43,429 nucleotides of DNA. Origin: a virus. The position numbers and the translations under genes are program-made. Shown piece by piece: positions 13,265-21,705 of this stretch. Where the stretch lies: the IMG/VR virus record IMGVR_UViG_3300034198_012474, positions 1-43,429 of that record; one strand, 5' to 3'. The notes under the pieces were generated by a model. It was not told the origin of the DNA. It searched no databases and saw only the letters and a list, made by a program, of their open reading frames with translations. Each line of letters opens with the position of its first letter. Within the stretch, counting starts at the first letter, position 1.

Positions 13265-14259
13265 GAAAACCATTCCTGTGTGATAACTTCATTTTCGCAA
13301 ATTTCAAACCCCATGGTTATAAATGAAGGAATTTTAGAGCTATTGGCATCAAAATAGATCGGAACCCCACCAGCATGGTATTGCATAGATAAATTTTTAA
13401 TAATACACATTTTAAATTTAAACAATCCGCTTGCATCAGAAAATTCAGGTTTATACATAAATGGATAGTCGAATAAATAATTTCCGAATACCGCATTAAA
13501 ACTAGGATGCATTCCTTTAGCTAATGTAGTTTCTATTTCTTTAAGAGTTATAGCTTCCTGTAAGGACTTTGGAAAGAATGTATAATCAAATCTAAAGCTT
13601 CTTAGATCAGGCCCTTCATATAAAGTTGCAATAAAAGGATTTCTAGCAACGCCTCCTAAACCAAAGGCAGTTTGTCCTAGTCTACTACTAGTTATAGCAT
13701 CTCCTACGCCAGCTAATGCTAAATCAGCAGCGTCAGAACCAAGCATTGATGCTATGCTGTCAGCAGCATCCCATACACTGGCATTTTTATTTTGTTTGAA
13801 TTGATCTAAAGCAGAATTTAAATTTCCGTTGAAAGAATTTGTATTTAAAACTGCATTACCAAATGCGCCCAATTCTGTTGTAGCCCAATTAGCATTGTAG
13901 TTGTTATTTAAACTAGGTGGCATAGGAAGCTGAATAACATTTCCTGTTAACTTCCCTTTTAAAACAGCATCTTGAGTTGATCTAGTATAACGATATTCAT
14001 GTAATATAAACCACTGTCCAGATTTAGCTTCATAATCACTAGGATAGCTCATAGTCTTTCCAGTCGGAGCGGGCGGTGGTGGTGAAGATTGCCTAATAGT
14101 TATAGGTGTGGCTGTAGTTGACGTTCCATTTCCGGGCGAGTTTTGTACAGTTGAATCCCCTCCCGTTCCTCCCGGAGGAACATCGTTGTAGATTCTTATT
14201 GGTGTTGCATTTCCACTATATTGCAGCACTCTTTTTTGGGTATCTGTTTGGGAAGCCAT
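13261..14259 (-). CDS. Baseplate tail-tube junction protein, gp48/gp54-like
   Basis: The 332-residue protein has a disordered Pro/Gly/Thr/Ser-rich N-terminus (to about residue 70). It then has a segment starting 'VIQLPMPPSL', a helical middle, and a C-terminal tube-like domain with 'ARNPFIATLYEGPDLRSFRF', 'DYTFFPKSLQEA', 'KGMHPSF' and 'FITMGFEICENEVIT'. This is the pattern of the gp48/gp54 family that closes the baseplate hub and starts tail tube polymerisation. T4 has two such proteins and only one is found here. The start has AGGA 6 bases upstream. The gene opens the minus-strand operon and is divergent from gp4. Confidence 0.72.
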   Translation of the reverse strand: MASQTDTQKRVLQYSGNATPIRIYNDVPPGGTGGDSTVQNSPGNGTSTTATPITIRQSSPPPPAPTGKTMSYPSDYEAKSGQWFILHEYRYTRSTQDAVLKGKLTGNVIQLPMPPSLNNNYNANWATTELGAFGNAVLNTNSFNGNLNSALDQFKQNKNASVWDAADSIASMLGSDAADLALAGVGDAITSSRLGQTAFGLGGVARNPFIATLYEGPDLRSFRFDYTFFPKSLQEAITLKEIETTLAKGMHPSFNAVFGNYLFDYPFMYKPEFSDASGLFKFKMCIIKNLSMQYHAGGVPIYFDANSSKIPSFITMGFEICENEVITQEWFS

Positions 14260-14269
14260 ATCATTCCTA

Positions 14270-14277
14270 TATAAATA
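14270..14277 (+). promoter_or_regulatory. Late promoter TATAAATA for the plus-strand morphogenesis operon
   Basis: A perfect T4-type late box TATAAATA lies in the divergent gap between gp48/54 and gp4, in the right orientation for gp4. Transcription would start near 14283-14290. This places the gp4 start downstream of about 14290 and rules out the in-frame ATG at 14118 for transcripts from this promoter. Confidence 0.65.
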
Positions 14278-14312
14278 AATTTGTACAACTATTTATCAAG
14301 GAATTACACAAA

Positions 14313-14792
14313 ATTTCTAATGACATAACACCATCTTCGAAGCCCATACGACGAAAAAAAACTAGATTTAATCAAGGTATATTTACACCTAAAAATCCAG
14401 AAAAGTATGCAGGTGATCCAACAAAGATTATCCATCGATCTGGATTGGAAAAGAGATTCTTTAAACTTTTTGATGAAAGAAAAGGAATAGTTAAATGGGC
14501 TTCAGAAGAAATGTATATCCCATATGTTTCACCAGTAGATGGAAAACAACATAGATATTTTATTGATATTATTGCAAAAACTGAAAAAGGAAAACTGATT
14601 TTTATTGAAATAAAGCCAAAGACACAGTGTGCGCCGCCCAAACAGAAAAAACGAAATACACAGAGATATATTCAGGAACTCGTGACTTGGCAAGTTAATG
14701 AAGCAAAATGGAAAGCAGCACAAGAATTTGCTCATAAAAAAGGTGGGGAATTTTTAGTGTTAACAGAAGAACATTTGAAGAATTGGAATTAA
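14313..14792 (+). CDS. 4: Head completion protein gp4, probable ATT start
   Basis: The conserved part resembles gp4: 'QGIFTPKNPEKYAGDPTKII', 'HRSGLEKRFFKLFD', 'WASEEMYIPYVSPVDGKQHR', 'YFIDIIAK', 'FIEIKPK' and 'RYIQELVTWQVNEAKW'. The D-x-E-I-K arrangement recalls endonuclease folds. gp4 acts with gp2 in completing and sealing packaged heads. No ATG, GTG or TTG exists in frame between the divergent late promoter and the conserved domain. The only in-frame ATG (14118) lies deep inside the divergent gene and upstream of the promoter. ATT at 14313 follows AAGGA (14298-14302) and gives a protein of 159 residues, near the usual length. The start is inferred; the family call is strong. Confidence 0.8.
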   Translation: MSNDITPSSKPIRRKKTRFNQGIFTPKNPEKYAGDPTKIIHRSGLEKRFFKLFDERKGIVKWASEEMYIPYVSPVDGKQHRYFIDIIAKTEKGKLIFIEIKPKTQCAPPKQKKRNTQRYIQELVTWQVNEAKWKAAQEFAHKKGGEFLVLTEEHLKNWN

Positions 14793-15969: not shown

Positions 15970-16707
15970 ATGAATAAATTACCGAAAATCGTTACTCCAG
16001 AATATAGTCTTGTTCTTCCAATTCTAAAAAAAGAAATTAAATATAGACCCTTTCTTGTTAAAGAAGAAAAAGTTTTATTGACAGCTTTAGAATCTTTTAA
16101 TCAAAAATCTGAAACCGAAGATTTATCTAATGCAATTATGCAAGTTGTAAATAATTGTATTGTCAGTCAAAACATTGACATAGAGAAATTAGCTAATTTG
16201 GATATCGAATATTTATTTTTAAATATTCGAAAGGTATCTGTTGGAGAAACTGTAAATGTTATAGTTACACATTCTTGTGGAAATGGAATTGGACATGAAA
16301 ACAAGATAGTTGTCAATTTAAACGATACTAAGGTAGTAATTCCAGAAGGGCATTCTCCAATTATTATGTTGGATGACACTATAGGTGTTAAGATGAAATA
16401 TCCTTCATTAAAGGAATCTATGAAAGTTGTCGGTAAGAAAAATAAATCTAAAGTAGATATGATGTATGAAACTATTGCAACCAATATTGATATTGTTGTA
16501 AATGGTGACGATATGATTGATATTTCTGATGTTTCTGTAGAAGAGTTAAAACAGTGGCTCGAAACATTTCCAACAAATGTCATGGAAAAAATTTATACAT
16601 TCTTTGAAACTTTACCACATTTACAGACCAAGATTAATTATACATGTTCGGGGTGCGGCCAAGCAGCGGAGGTGGAAGTTAACGGTACCTCTGATTTTTT
16701 TATCTAA
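15970..16707 (+). CDS. 26: Baseplate hub assembly protein gp26-like, with -1 slippery site at its 3' end
   Basis: The 245-residue protein resembles gp26-type proteins of T4-like phages: 'LPKIVTPEYSLVLPILKKEI', 'YRPFLVKEEKVLLTALES', and a C-terminal helix region before 'HLQTKINYTCSGCGQAAEV'. The paired Cys (CSGC) and an earlier 'HSCGNGIGH' could bind zinc. T4 gp26 (208 residues) takes part in hub assembly. Its penultimate codons read GAT TTT TTT ATC TAA. The heptamer T-TTT-TTT at 16695-16701 is a classic -1 slippery site, and the -1 frame is open from there into the next gene. A minor frameshifted product, as in lambda G/GT tail chaperones, is therefore likely. AAGGA is a good ribosome binding site. 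Confidence 0.75.
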   Translation: MNKLPKIVTPEYSLVLPILKKEIKYRPFLVKEEKVLLTALESFNQKSETEDLSNAIMQVVNNCIVSQNIDIEKLANLDIEYLFLNIRKVSVGETVNVIVTHSCGNGIGHENKIVVNLNDTKVVIPEGHSPIIMLDDTIGVKMKYPSLKESMKVVGKKNKSKVDMMYETIATNIDIVVNGDDMIDISDVSVEELKQWLETFPTNVMEKIYTFFETLPHLQTKINYTCSGCGQAAEVEVNGTSDFFI

Positions 16708-16727
16708 TTCTTAGTCATGATTCGTTG

Positions 16728-16922
16728 ATGAGTTTTTATAAAACAAACTTCAATATGAAAGAGGATTGGGGTTATTCTTATTCAGAGATTAATGACATGA
16801 TGCCGTACGAACGGGAGTTGGAATTACTTTTTATAATGCAAAGAATAGAAGAACAAAATAAGACTAATGCAATAGATGGTCCGCCATCATTGCCAACTAA
16901 AGCAGAATTTAATAATGAATGA
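16728..16922 (+). CDS. Small tail assembly chaperone extension (T-like), likely made as a -1 fusion to gp26
   Basis: The 64-residue reading frame encodes 'WGYSYSEINDMMPYERELEL' and 'FIMQRIEEQ', the W-(x)n-P-x-E-R-E pattern of short proteins that follow gp26 in T4-like phages and the T part of tail chaperone pairs. It is in the -1 frame relative to gp26, and that frame is open continuously from 16695, just at the T7 slippery run. No convincing Shine-Dalgarno precedes the ATG. The most likely product is a gp26 fusion of about 318 residues; independent translation from the ATG remains possible. Its last codons overlap the next gene's start. Confidence 0.65.
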   Translation: MSFYKTNFNMKEDWGYSYSEINDMMPYERELELLFIMQRIEEQNKTNAIDGPPSLPTKAEFNNE

Positions 16923-17322
16923 TATTACTAAAGACGAAATTGTTCAAATTGTAAATGAAGAGCTTGATAAAAGAGCTTCGTTAGACAGCACAGGTGGACA
17001 AGAAGACACCATACCAGAAGAAGGACAGGAACCCTCTTCTGGCGCATCAGCACGCTTAAAAATGGGATATGATCCTCTTGATCCTGATATGAATGCCGAT
17101 AGATTTAAGAATAGAAGAAGAATGGCATGGGTTTCTTTATTTGCAAATTTGGCTATTGTTGCAGTTATTCTTTTTAAATTAGATGCAACATTAGTTTCTA
17201 ATTATGAAGGTGTATTGGGATGGTATTTTGCTACGTCATCATCTATTATTCTAGCATATATTGGAGTTTCCACTTGGAGTTATAACACATTTGTGAAGAA
17301 TAGAGGAAAATATGGTGAATAA
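16915..17322 (+). CDS. Small two-helix membrane protein
   Basis: The 135-residue protein has an acidic hydrophilic N-terminal half (to about residue 60), a basic stretch 'RFKNRRRM', and two hydrophobic segments at about 70-88 and 102-122. A short basic tail follows. Two membrane spans with this charge pattern recall holins, but its place between the tail chaperone and the tape-measure candidate could equally mean a virion or inner-membrane assembly role. The ATG overlaps the end of the preceding frame; an upstream in-frame GTG would give 13 extra residues and is less likely. Not assigned to a family. Confidence 0.6.
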   Translation: MNDITKDEIVQIVNEELDKRASLDSTGGQEDTIPEEGQEPSSGASARLKMGYDPLDPDMNADRFKNRRRMAWVSLFANLAIVAVILFKLDATLVSNYEGVLGWYFATSSSIILAYIGVSTWSYNTFVKNRGKYGE

Positions 17323-19072
17323 ACTTCCTACTTTAAATATAAAAAATGAAGATGGTAAGAGAAAAGAAACTTCGCCAGAAGAAGTGATGAAGATCGCTTC
17401 AGATTTGATGGATAAACTTCAACATAGTCAAGTAGATATTCAGAGATTTGTTATTGAAAGTATAAAAATATTAACAAATAAAGAAGTAATGACTGAAGCT
17501 ATTGATAGATTTCAAAAAGGCGACGGCCGTATTTGGGAAAGTCAAAGAAAGCAATTTCAAAAGTTTGCTGATGATATTATCAAAAAACTAGATATTTTTA
17601 AAAAAACAGGCAATTTACCAAATCAAAGCGAGCGTGAAAAGAAAAGTGATGCGTCATTCTATCGTAAACATATTATAGAAAATCCAGAAATAGATTCTTT
17701 AATTCAAAAAGGATTAAATGAAAATGAACAGCCAAATGTTCAGTCTACAGCATCTTCAGCAAAAAAGAAGTCTACTAGTGCAGAAACTCAAAAACTAATC
17801 TTAAGTCGTATTGATAAGAATACTGAAAATACTGTTAAACTTTTAGATAAAACCTCTAAACTTCCATCTCGCTCTCCTGAGGAAGTGAAAGATACCCATG
17901 TTCTTGTTCAGACGATTAAAGAAATTTTGGGAATTATGGAAACTGATGAAAAAAAGAAGAGAGCCGAACAGAGAAAGCAATTAGGCAAAGCTGCTATTCA
18001 GGGAGTGAATCCATTAAATCTTGATCTTTCCAGTCCAGGCCAATTTATTTCTAACCTTGCAGGTTCCGTTCTCACTAAGTTCATAGGAACTTTGGGAGAA
18101 TTTGTTATGCGAGGAATTATGATGTTATTTTCAAGTAAAGTTGTTCTTGGTCTGCTAGTCGGAGGACTAATAGTAATTTTTAGAAAGGAAATTAAGAAAG
18201 TTGCAGAAGCTATTTGGGAATGGTTTAAAGGTGTATTTGATTATTTAAAAAAATTCTTTGTTGTTGATCTTCCTGAAATGCTAGGATTAAAATCTGCACA
18301 ACCAGATATATCTAAAGAACTTCATAAATTCGTAGATATTAATACTCCATCTAAAACAAGTTCTACTTCTTCTGAACCTGCACCAGAAAAGAGAGAATCT
18401 GTTCCTTTTGGATATACCCCCGGCGGCAACTCAAATACTGAGTCATATTCTACTTCAGAACCTGCCGCAACAATAGAACCTCCAAAAGAAGTTCAACCAG
18501 CACCAGAAGAAAAACCAAAAAATACCGTAGAGAATGTTTTGACTCGGTTGGATACTGCTATTGCAGAAGACGAAAATAAACTAATTGTATTATTTGATAA
18601 GCACCAAAAAGCTCGGGGAAAGCAGAAGACTAAAATAAAAAAAGAAATGGATGATATTAAAAAGCAGTTAGATGAATATTATACTTATAGAGAACAAGCT
18701 ATTGCTGAAATTAATAAACAAAAAGAAGGCGAAAAATCTGTAGTTTCTCCATCTCCAACAGAACCACAAGGCCCGGTTTATCCTGAAGAAAGTGATGACT
18801 TGAAGGTTCAGGAAGCGGGCGAAGTAACTATAAAAGATGCTCCCGTTCCCCGCCCTCGCCCGGTTGATTTAGGAAAACAAAAATCTGAATTTTTGGATAA
18901 AGGTAGAAAGAAAAAAGCAGAACATGAGGCTGCGTATAAAAATGCAGTCCTTCAAGGGAACAAACAGAAACCAACAAATCAATCGATTGTAAACCAGAAT
19001 GTTAATAATGTTAGAAATACATCTATATCAACTCCATCTCCAATGGATTCAAGCGTTTGGAAAAATAAATGA
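17312..19072 (+). CDS. Tape-measure (gp29-like) candidate
   Basis: The 586-residue protein is mostly helical and charged, with a single hydrophobic segment at about 264-290 flanked by 'FIGTLGEFVMRG' and an amphipathic 'IKKVAEAIWEWFKG' helix. Pro/Glu/Ser-rich linkers and a coiled-coil-like region 'LFDKHQKARGKQKTKIKKEM' near 500 follow. A long helical protein with one membrane-like segment directly after a frameshifting chaperone pair is the usual setting of a tail tape measure. T4 gp29 is 590 residues, a close length match. No specific gp29 motif was recognised, so this is inference from length, composition and position. ATG overlaps the preceding gene; AGAGGA serves as ribosome binding site. 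Confidence 0.4.
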   Translation: MVNKLPTLNIKNEDGKRKETSPEEVMKIASDLMDKLQHSQVDIQRFVIESIKILTNKEVMTEAIDRFQKGDGRIWESQRKQFQKFADDIIKKLDIFKKTGNLPNQSEREKKSDASFYRKHIIENPEIDSLIQKGLNENEQPNVQSTASSAKKKSTSAETQKLILSRIDKNTENTVKLLDKTSKLPSRSPEEVKDTHVLVQTIKEILGIMETDEKKKRAEQRKQLGKAAIQGVNPLNLDLSSPGQFISNLAGSVLTKFIGTLGEFVMRGIMMLFSSKVVLGLLVGGLIVIFRKEIKKVAEAIWEWFKGVFDYLKKFFVVDLPEMLGLKSAQPDISKELHKFVDINTPSKTSSTSSEPAPEKRESVPFGYTPGGNSNTESYSTSEPAATIEPPKEVQPAPEEKPKNTVENVLTRLDTAIAEDENKLIVLFDKHQKARGKQKTKIKKEMDDIKKQLDEYYTYREQAIAEINKQKEGEKSVVSPSPTEPQGPVYPEESDDLKVQEAGEVTIKDAPVPRPRPVDLGKQKSEFLDKGRKKKAEHEAAYKNAVLQGNKQKPTNQSIVNQNVNNVRNTSISTPSPMDSSVWKNK

Positions 19073-21705
19073 CTACAGTAATTTATCGTAATAATCCAAA
19101 TCTTCGTGCTCCAGACACGGCGATTGGATTAACAGCAGAACAAATACAAATTTGGATTAAGTGTTCAGAAGATTTTGAATATTTTCTAGAAAATTATGTG
19201 AAAATTCTTAATCCTGATCAAGGTTATATCAAATTAAAGTTATTTGATTTCCAAAAAGAAATTCTTAAAACTGTAGATGCAAATAAGTTTACTGTTGTTA
19301 GAGCAGCAAGACAGGTAGGTAAGAGCACTTGTCTTGCTGCTTACATTGTATGGAAAATTATATTCAATACAGTTCCGTATCGTGTTGGTATTTTTGCTGA
19401 TAAAGCAGCGACAGCACAAGAAATTTTAAGCCGCGTAAAAGATGCGTATGAAGGTCTTCCATTATGGCTTCAGATTGGGGCTGTCAAATGGAATGAACTT
19501 TCAATCGAACTAGAAAATAAGTCTCGTGTTGTTGCGAATGCAACCACAAAGAAAGCTGCTAGAGGTTTCTCTTACAATCTTATTGTAATGGACGAATTTG
19601 CTCACGTTGAACCTAATGTTGCTGATGCATTCTATGAATCAGTTCAGCCCACCGTTTCCCGTGGTGCTGATTCAAAAATGGTTATCATTTCAACTCCAAA
19701 AGGCATGAATTTATATCACAGTATTTGGTCAAAATCAATTGAAGGTATTAATGAATTTAAACATGTGGATGTTCCGTGGAATGCTATTCCGGGTAGAGAT
19801 GAAGAGTTTAAACAGAAAACTATTGGTACTGTAGGTATTGACGCATGGCGCCAAGAATATGAATGCGAATTTTTAGGTTCTTCTGGAACCCTATTGGATA
19901 CACCAACTCTTAAGAAGCTTACATTTACGAGACAATTTGATACTCTATCAGATGTAAAAATCTATGAATATCCACAAAAGAATCATAGTTATTACATGTG
20001 TTGTGATACGTCTCGTGGACGTACTCTCGATTATTCGGCTTTCACAGTTATTGATATTACTTCACTGCCATATAAAGTAGTTGCCACATTTAGAGATAAT
20101 AATATTTCTACAATGCTTTATCCTACTAAAATTCACGAGATAGCTAAAAGTTATAATGAAGCTATGGTTCTAGTTGAAACCAATGATACAACAGAAGTAT
20201 CCAATATTCTTTACTATGATCTTGAATACGAAAACATGGTATTTGTTGAAAATGGCCGATTCTCTACAATGGGAGATGGTAGAAATTCAATCCCTGGATT
20301 GATGATGAACAAATCTGTTCGTCCTACAGGATGTAATGCATTAAAATCTCTATTGGAAAGAGACCAACTTATTATTAATGACGAAGAAATTTATAAAGAA
20401 TTGAATTCTTTTGAATTGAAAGGAAATAAGTATCAAGCCGCCGATGGTAAACATGATGATTTGGTTATGTGTTTACACCGCACTAATATGGTTACAACTG
20501 AAGATGGAGAAAAGACCATCAAATGGATAGTTGATAACAAATATACTGGTAAAGTTCTTTCAGTAAATTCTTCTGGTAAATTTACTTGGGAAAGAGTAAT
20601 AGGACATTCTGCCAAAAATAATATAGGTTTAAATAAGAAACAATGGGTTCAAATAAAATCATACACTGGTAAAAATAGAAAACAAGTTATTTGTTCTTCA
20701 GATCATCAATGCGCTTATATAGACAATATATTATTTCCTGAAATAAAATGGACCGAAGCTAAGAATTTAACTGGAAAATATATTATTCGCGAACCTGTAA
20801 TAAATTCAAAATTAAATAATTGTAATCGTTTATTTAATGAGGATCAAATTTATACTATTTTAGGTATTGTTGCTGGCGATGGAAGTATTTCAAAAACTGG
20901 TCAATTTTCAACGGCACATGGGCCATACCAGATTGAATATATGAATTATATTCAATCTATATTGGGCGGCAATGTACTAGAGAAACTAAATAAACGAAAT
21001 AAATTAGATTCTTTTCTTTCACTACAAACAAATGCTCAAACGAAATATCTAAGAGAGTTATTTTATGTAAATGGTAAGAAAACTATTAAAAACGTTCTCC
21101 AATACATGAATGAAATTAGTTTAGCATTTTGGTATATGGATGATGGATATTTACATGGAAAATCTGGTGCTGGATTATGCACCGAATCATTTTCATTAGA
21201 AGATGTTGAATTAATTCAAAAATGGTTATTGGAAAAATTTGAAATTGAAACAACAAGCCAAACCTCTCAAGGAGCAAGAATTTATATTAAATCAAATTCA
21301 AAGGAAAAATTCTTTGCTCTAATCTCTCCATATGTATGTGATAGTATGGCATATAAAATTCAAAGTAAATGTTCCGAATTTAAAATTAGTTTGTCAAATA
21401 AATATAAAGATTATTCATCAACAAAAGTAATAGAAGTTAAAAATATTAACGAAACAAATTTTGAAAGTAAATTATATGATATTACTGTTGAAAATAATCA
21501 TAATTTTATGGCAAACAAGACATTGGTTCATAATTGTCTAGTCATGTTTGCGTGGTCAACTCGCCAAACATATTTTACAGAATTAACAGATTTAAATATT
21601 CGTGAAAAATTATATGCTGATATAGCAAAACAGATTGAAGAAGATATGTTGCCTATAGGGTTTTATTCCAATGGTTCTACTGATGACGATTCTTTTAATT
21701 GGTAA
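19069..21705 (+). CDS. 17: Terminase large subunit gp17, interrupted by an intein
   Basis: The 878-residue precursor contains the packaging ATPase/nuclease. Walker A-type 'AARQVGKST' is at 79-87, and Walker B with catalytic Glu 'LIVMDEFAHV' at 171-180. Nuclease acidic residues are D313 ('CCDTSRGRTLDY'), E370 ('VLVETND') and D463/D464 ('KHDDLVM'). An in-frame intein occupies residues 468-822, so mature gp17 would be 523 residues, somewhat shorter than T4 gp17 (610). Removing the intein joins 'KHDDLVM' to 'CLVMFAWS', as in normal gp17 C-termini. gp17 drives DNA into the prohead and cuts the concatemer. The start overlaps the preceding stop (ATGA). The partner gp16 lies 5 kb downstream instead of directly upstream. 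Confidence 0.95.
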   Translation: MTTVIYRNNPNLRAPDTAIGLTAEQIQIWIKCSEDFEYFLENYVKILNPDQGYIKLKLFDFQKEILKTVDANKFTVVRAARQVGKSTCLAAYIVWKIIFNTVPYRVGIFADKAATAQEILSRVKDAYEGLPLWLQIGAVKWNELSIELENKSRVVANATTKKAARGFSYNLIVMDEFAHVEPNVADAFYESVQPTVSRGADSKMVIISTPKGMNLYHSIWSKSIEGINEFKHVDVPWNAIPGRDEEFKQKTIGTVGIDAWRQEYECEFLGSSGTLLDTPTLKKLTFTRQFDTLSDVKIYEYPQKNHSYYMCCDTSRGRTLDYSAFTVIDITSLPYKVVATFRDNNISTMLYPTKIHEIAKSYNEAMVLVETNDTTEVSNILYYDLEYENMVFVENGRFSTMGDGRNSIPGLMMNKSVRPTGCNALKSLLERDQLIINDEEIYKELNSFELKGNKYQAADGKHDDLVMCLHRTNMVTTEDGEKTIKWIVDNKYTGKVLSVNSSGKFTWERVIGHSAKNNIGLNKKQWVQIKSYTGKNRKQVICSSDHQCAYIDNILFPEIKWTEAKNLTGKYIIREPVINSKLNNCNRLFNEDQIYTILGIVAGDGSISKTGQFSTAHGPYQIEYMNYIQSILGGNVLEKLNKRNKLDSFLSLQTNAQTKYLRELFYVNGKKTIKNVLQYMNEISLAFWYMDDGYLHGKSGAGLCTESFSLEDVELIQKWLLEKFEIETTSQTSQGARIYIKSNSKEKFFALISPYVCDSMAYKIQSKCSEFKISLSNKYKDYSSTKVIEVKNINETNFESKLYDITVENNHNFMANKTLVHNCLVMFAWSTRQTYFTELTDLNIREKLYADIAKQIEEDMLPIGFYSNGSTDDDSFNW
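20470..21534 (+). mobile_element. LAGLIDADG intein in the terminase gene
   Basis: The 355-residue insertion starts with Cys ('CLHRTNMVTTEDGE', block A) and has 'ICSSDHQ' in the place of block B. Two dodecapeptide endonuclease motifs follow, 'YTILGIVAGDGS' (precursor residues 595-606) and 'SLAFWYMDDGY' (684-694). It ends 'ENNHNFMANKTLVHN' (blocks F/G), followed by Cys+1. All splicing residues (Cys1, the block B His, the final His-Asn, Cys+1) are present, so self-splicing is expected. Insertion is four codons after the conserved nuclease Asp pair, a slowly evolving site typical for inteins. The DNA is AT-rich like the flanking gene. The homing endonuclease looks intact. Confidence 0.93.

Follow-up and report, generated by a model that had tools for sequence, protein, structure and literature searches.

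Near the end of the gp26 gene of the virus recorded in IMG/VR as IMGVR_UViG_3300034198_012474, a run of seven T residues stands one codon ahead of the stop and a second reading frame continues past it, which raises the question of whether ribosomes change frame here and extend gp26 into a longer product. A preliminary description of this DNA (the whole 43,429-nt stretch, hereafter the window) had proposed that they do, with gp26 acting as a tail assembly chaperone (TAC) and the shift yielding a minor fused form. The comparisons reported below, which rest on sequence and predicted structure, indicate that gp26 is very probably a T4-type TAC gene with a programmed -1 ribosomal frameshift, for which a fusion product is predicted.

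A slip heptamer and an open -1 frame at the end of gp26

In its own frame, gp26 ends GAT TTT TTT ATC TAA (16693-16707), as had been read in the preliminary description, so that the heptamer T_TTT_TTT lies in gp26 phase (Table 1). The -1 frame is open exactly from the slip site, also as claimed: a TGA abuts the heptamer on its 5' side, and the frame then stays open up to a second TGA at 16920-16922. The length originally given for this frame, 64 codons, needs correction, as a shifted ribosome would read 75 codons from 16695; counted from its first start codon, TTG 16725, the frame has 65. The predicted fused product is 317 aa long (244 gp26 residues plus 73), and its junction residues would be ...SFFRLGMAHESLESYYK. 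No Shine-Dalgarno-like sequence precedes TTG 16725 or the next possible start, ATG 16728 (+0.6 kcal/mol against the anti-Shine-Dalgarno (anti-SD) sequence, compared with -3.8 kcal/mol at the gp26 start and -5.8 kcal/mol at the start of the downstream 586-aa ORF), in agreement with the earlier remark that the small frame has no good ribosome binding site. The T run is unlikely to be an assembly error because a second contig (L001) is 100% identical to the window over 3208 nt, T run included.

Table 1. Positions of gp26, its slip site and neighboring features in the window.
Feature	Position	Strand	Match or remark
gp26 (short form, TAC-N), 245 aa	15970..16707	+	PF12322 / phrog_150
TGA closing the -1 frame, directly 5' of the heptamer	16692..16694	+	
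Slip heptamer T_TTT_TTT, in phase with gp26, followed by one codon and the gp26 stop	16695..16701	+	
-1 open region, cyanophage 'gp51' / TAC C-terminal domain	16695..16922	+	phrog_634, phrog_150 C-terminal end, T4 gp51 C-terminus (homology)
gp26 0-frame stop TAA	16705..16707	+	
First possible -1 frame start TTG, without Shine-Dalgarno, 3' of the conserved SHDS residues	16725..16727	+	
135-aa ORF with hydrophobic segments	16915..17322	+	phrog_28953 (E 1e-8); start overlaps the -1 frame end (ATGAATGA)
586-aa ORF, candidate tape measure protein	17312..19072	+	position and size only

The 51 ORFs in the window that reach 100 aa were scanned for in-phase X_XXY_YYZ heptamers. Among the 105 found, no T_TTT_TTN but the gp26 site has an extension exceeding 20 codons past the 0-frame stop, and that extension (71 codons) is the longest of all 105. 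A search of Rfam gave no match.

The slip site is conserved among relatives

Relatives were scored at cyanophage, pelagiphage and other named phage loci and at 80 further IMG/VR loci. They were picked by similarity to the window's gp26 and are not phylogenetically independent, and the counts given here ignore shared ancestry. Reduced to less than 80% gp26 identity, the set comprises 65 genes outside Ackermannviridae, including the window's own. The preliminary description had named missing conservation of the T run or of the -1 overlap in relatives as counting against its proposal; this outcome was not seen, and all 65 genes carry an in-phase T_TTT_TTN at the gp26 end together with an open -1 frame encoding one homologous domain (gp51). 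The heptamer is T6C in 58 genes, T7 in six and T6A in one, and it is likewise present in 25/25 genes when the set is restricted to less than 60% gp26 identity. For comparison, T_TTT_TTN is found at only 36/372 other Phe-Phe pairs in those loci (9.7%) and at 11/15,717 other gp26 codon positions. The same pattern is seen at silent sites: the codon ahead of the two Phe residues ends in T in 65/65 genes, TTT encodes the first Phe in all 65 (background 69%), and TTC encodes the second in 58/65, contrary to the background preference for TTT. This anatomy of slip site and -1 domain extends across cyanophages, a pelagiphage, and phages of Rhizobium, Ochrobactrum, Stenotrophomonas, Aeromonas and Vibrio.

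Most relatives have a Shine-Dalgarno-like element 5' of the slip site

In E. coli dnaX, a 5' Shine-Dalgarno stimulates -1 frameshifting, and such sequences occur in many IS elements as well (PMC5009743). Similarly, most relatives (among loci L004-L098) contain GGAGGG, an internal motif resembling a Shine-Dalgarno, 9-10 nt on the 5' side of the slip site. In 52/65 genes, pairing with the anti-SD at -5 kcal/mol or better is possible for a 7-nt stretch whose 3' end lies 7-11 nt from the heptamer, a level reached by 2.3% of single stretches in the background. In 43/44 genes in which such a core precedes a close-by ATG, 9-10 nt separate the end of the core from the heptamer; the core's distance to the ATG is mostly 24-25 nt, which is too long for initiation. 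The element is also present in 11/18 genes that have no nearby ATG. Codon choice within it is skewed in the same direction, with GAG used at 44/52 Glu codons versus 30% elsewhere (p 1.5e-15) and G-ending codons at 33/49 Leu positions versus 28% (p 2e-8). No mention of an internal Shine-Dalgarno at these genes was found in the literature covered, to which the full text of Vladimirov et al. (2022) does not belong. The element is a testable candidate stimulator of the slip.

The window itself differs from dnaX and from these relatives. Its slip site has no Shine-Dalgarno at the relatives' spacing (-1.3 kcal/mol), and it carries GGAGGTGG (GGAGG) about 21 nt upstream. A downstream pseudoknot or hairpin was also considered as a stimulator and rejected: RNA downstream of the window's site folds no better than shuffled sequences, and no consensus pseudoknot or hairpin was found downstream of the slip site in 20 relatives. 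Two further differences from dnaX are that no downstream stem-loop was found here and that the slip would yield the longer product. Because the window has neither an internal Shine-Dalgarno at that spacing nor a predicted downstream structure, the slip rate in this phage could be low. Stimulators of either sort are frequent at programmed -1 sites without being required. A broader reading, which we offer tentatively and consider somewhat more apt to fail than to hold, is that in T4-like phages a conserved internal Shine-Dalgarno of the dnaX type, placed 9-10 nt before T_TTT_TTC, tunes the TAC frameshift, that phages like the window's, with a T7 run, manage without it via their different heptamer, and that T4 genes 26 and 51 stem from a duplication that froze both frameshift products in two genes.

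Reinitiation, polymerase slippage and chance

The -1 domain could alternatively be made as a separate gp51 by termination and reinitiation after the gp26 stop, with the T run being merely the Phe-Phe end of gp26. Many records do annotate gp51 as a gene of its own, 47/65 relatives have an ATG at most 9 codons from the slip site, often 2 nt past the gp26 stop, and a Shine-Dalgarno near a gene end can aid restarting (PMC5009743). In the relatives, however, the Shine-Dalgarno core stands 9-10 nt from the slip site and 24-25 nt from the ATG, and the heptamer is fixed at synonymous sites. Moreover, 18/65 genes (the window and 17 other relatives) lack an ATG in the first ten codons after the slip site, where the H-x-[SDN]-L part is nonetheless conserved, so that either a frameshift or a non-ATG start is needed to include the conserved H-x-[SD]-L-x-x-[YF] residues; in the window, the possible starts also have no Shine-Dalgarno before them. 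We therefore consider reinitiation on its own to be quite unlikely at these genes, although it could occur in addition to slippage in phages that have the ATG. The case is different for five Ackermannviridae (L006, L009, L014, L015 and L016), which have the gp51 domain in the -1 frame and no heptamer: because a TAATG stop-start overlap is present in four of the five, these phages may use reinitiation instead of slippage.

A change of frame caused by RNA polymerase, rather than the ribosome, slipping on the T7 run appears less likely still. The run is a homopolymer of seven, but the bacterial cases described involve runs of about 9 A or T (PMC5009743), and the T6C found in 58/65 relatives is a shorter run that still allows tandem tRNA re-pairing. 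That a T run lies by chance beside an unused open frame can practically be dismissed, since, even with an AT-rich genome and ten in-phase T_TTT_TTN in the window's ORFs, the heptamer, frame and domain are conserved in 65/65 genes and the -1 product matches a known tail protein family.

The short and the predicted fused product match T4 gp26 and gp51

The window's gp26 matches PF12322 (Pfam, E 1.1e-55) and phrog_150, 'baseplate hub' (PHROG, E 4.6e-58). The -1 product matches phrog_634, 'baseplate hub assembly catalyst' (E 2.2e-13), as well as the C-terminal end of phrog_150 (E 5e-4), indicating that the phrog_150 family includes fused forms. The extension had been called 'T-like'; it is more exactly a gp51 domain, the fused form being encoded in T4 as a gene of its own, 51.

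Both T4 proteins fall into the same families. T4 gp26 (208 aa) matches PF12322 along its entire length and aligns over its whole length with the profile of the window's gp26 relatives (E 4e-14), its C-terminus (...EFFELL) falling close to the slip position. T4 gp51 (249 aa) matches PF12322 and phrog_150, with phrog_634 at its C-terminus; the profile of the -1 extensions aligns with its residues 200-245 (hhalign, E 2.8e-6), and profile A3 gave a weak local match to it. By homology, T4 gp26 and gp51 are paralogues, the first corresponding to the short form and the second to the long form, so T4 would hard-code the products that slip-site phages probably make by slippage. As in T4, genes 26 and 51 are separate in Salmonella S16 (Tevenvirinae) and Acinetobacter Maestro (Twarogvirinae). 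In the Straboviridae Aeromonas PX29 (Angelvirus) and Vibrio VH7D (Schizotequatrovirus), a single gene carries T_TTT_TTC, with gp51 encoded in its -1 frame. Straboviridae are therefore split, with separate 26/51 genes at loci L003, L100 and L101 and a single slip-site gene at L012 and L013. We infer that a frameshifted ancestor gave rise to the two-gene state through gene duplication.

The predicted fold of gp26 is consistent with a TAC. An AlphaFold model built from 57 sequences (pLDDT 91, pTM 0.87) most closely resembles 2ob9_A, the tail assembly chaperone of HK97 (VIA-align, Z 8.1, rmsd 4.5, 88 residues), in a match that covers gp26 residues 1-91 only. The second match is an uncharacterised Bacillus protein, 3fgx (Z 7.6), and the next scores 5.0. 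As Foldseek alone found nothing significant in the PDB with the gp26 model, and as Z values of 7 to 8 are common, the HK97 match is supporting evidence, rather than proof, for the chaperone role first suggested for gp26. The gp26 sequence has no match among solved structures, and the top named BFVD matches of the model are gp26-family proteins. The -1 extension was modelled as helices with moderate confidence (pLDDT 74).

Proposed mechanism and relation to known chaperone genes

In the mechanism that we infer, most ribosomes would terminate at the TAA ending at 16707 to give gp26 (TAC-N, 245 aa), while a minority would shift to the -1 frame at T_TTT_TTT, producing the 317-aa gp26-gp51 fusion (TAC-NC). 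Roles can be proposed by analogy with lambda gpG/gpGT (PMC5009743): coating of the tape measure protein for the short form and, for the long form, recruitment of the tail tube or some other assembly partner via its helical C-terminal domain. In T4, S16 and Maestro, two separate paralogous genes, 26 and 51, encode these products. The proposed chaperone roles fit T4 because gp26 and gp51 are listed there as hub assembly chaperones, gp51 being needed for assembly yet absent from the particle (PMC3004832).

The likeness to lambda G/GT that had been noted at the outset holds in its arrangement: a short form, a -1 slip near its end, an extended form and a tape measure gene downstream, which in the window is a candidate. 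The heptamer is not that of lambda, the gp26 profile and lambda G share no similarity in sequence (hhalign probability 0.2%), and the C-terminal part is a gp51 domain with no established relation to lambda T. The likeness to the HK97 TAC lies in the predicted N-terminal fold of gp26.

The arrangement had also been thought unusual for a T4-type phage, a view that does not stand. A 2016 account describes the G-T frameshift as conserved in long-tailed phages except T4 (PMC5009743), but the TACs of T4-like phages were identified by Vladimirov, Gautam and Davidson (2022, Virology 566:9-15). Later articles cite it for some T4-like phages having one short gene and one fused gene (PMC10885494) and for polyT as known -1 signals in their TAC-N genes (PMC12846349). 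On these citations, the frameshifted TAC arrangement is already known in T4-like phages. By our reading, the window's likeness to those TACs (gp26/gp51) is one of protein family, judged apart from the paper's own list of phages and genes; T4 has two genes, whereas in the window phage a single gene carries a slip site.

None of the relatives' records examined annotates gp26 and gp51 as joined. In many T4-like marine phages, the gene annotated as 'baseplate hub subunit' and its neighbor ('hub assembly catalyst' or unannotated) are very probably one frameshifted TAC. These findings also support the view that T4 gene 26 encodes the short chaperone and gene 51 the long one.

Genes downstream of the frameshift and elsewhere in the window

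The 135-aa ORF that overlaps the end of the -1 frame has no Shine-Dalgarno, and its translation may be coupled to frameshifted ribosomes. It is the one small ORF between gp26 and the 586-aa candidate tape measure ORF, which begins about 600 nt beyond the gp26 stop and is close in size to T4 gp29 (590 aa). The 586-aa ORF has no confident tape measure family match in Pfam or PHROG, and the same is true of most of the relatives' counterpart ORFs; among the loci examined, it has no detectable relatives except its own copy. Elsewhere in the window, a LAGLIDADG endonuclease domain sits within an intein in the terminase large subunit ORF (19069-21705, 878 aa), and positions 14118-14792 encode a head completion gp4-like protein bearing a TnsA-like endonuclease domain.
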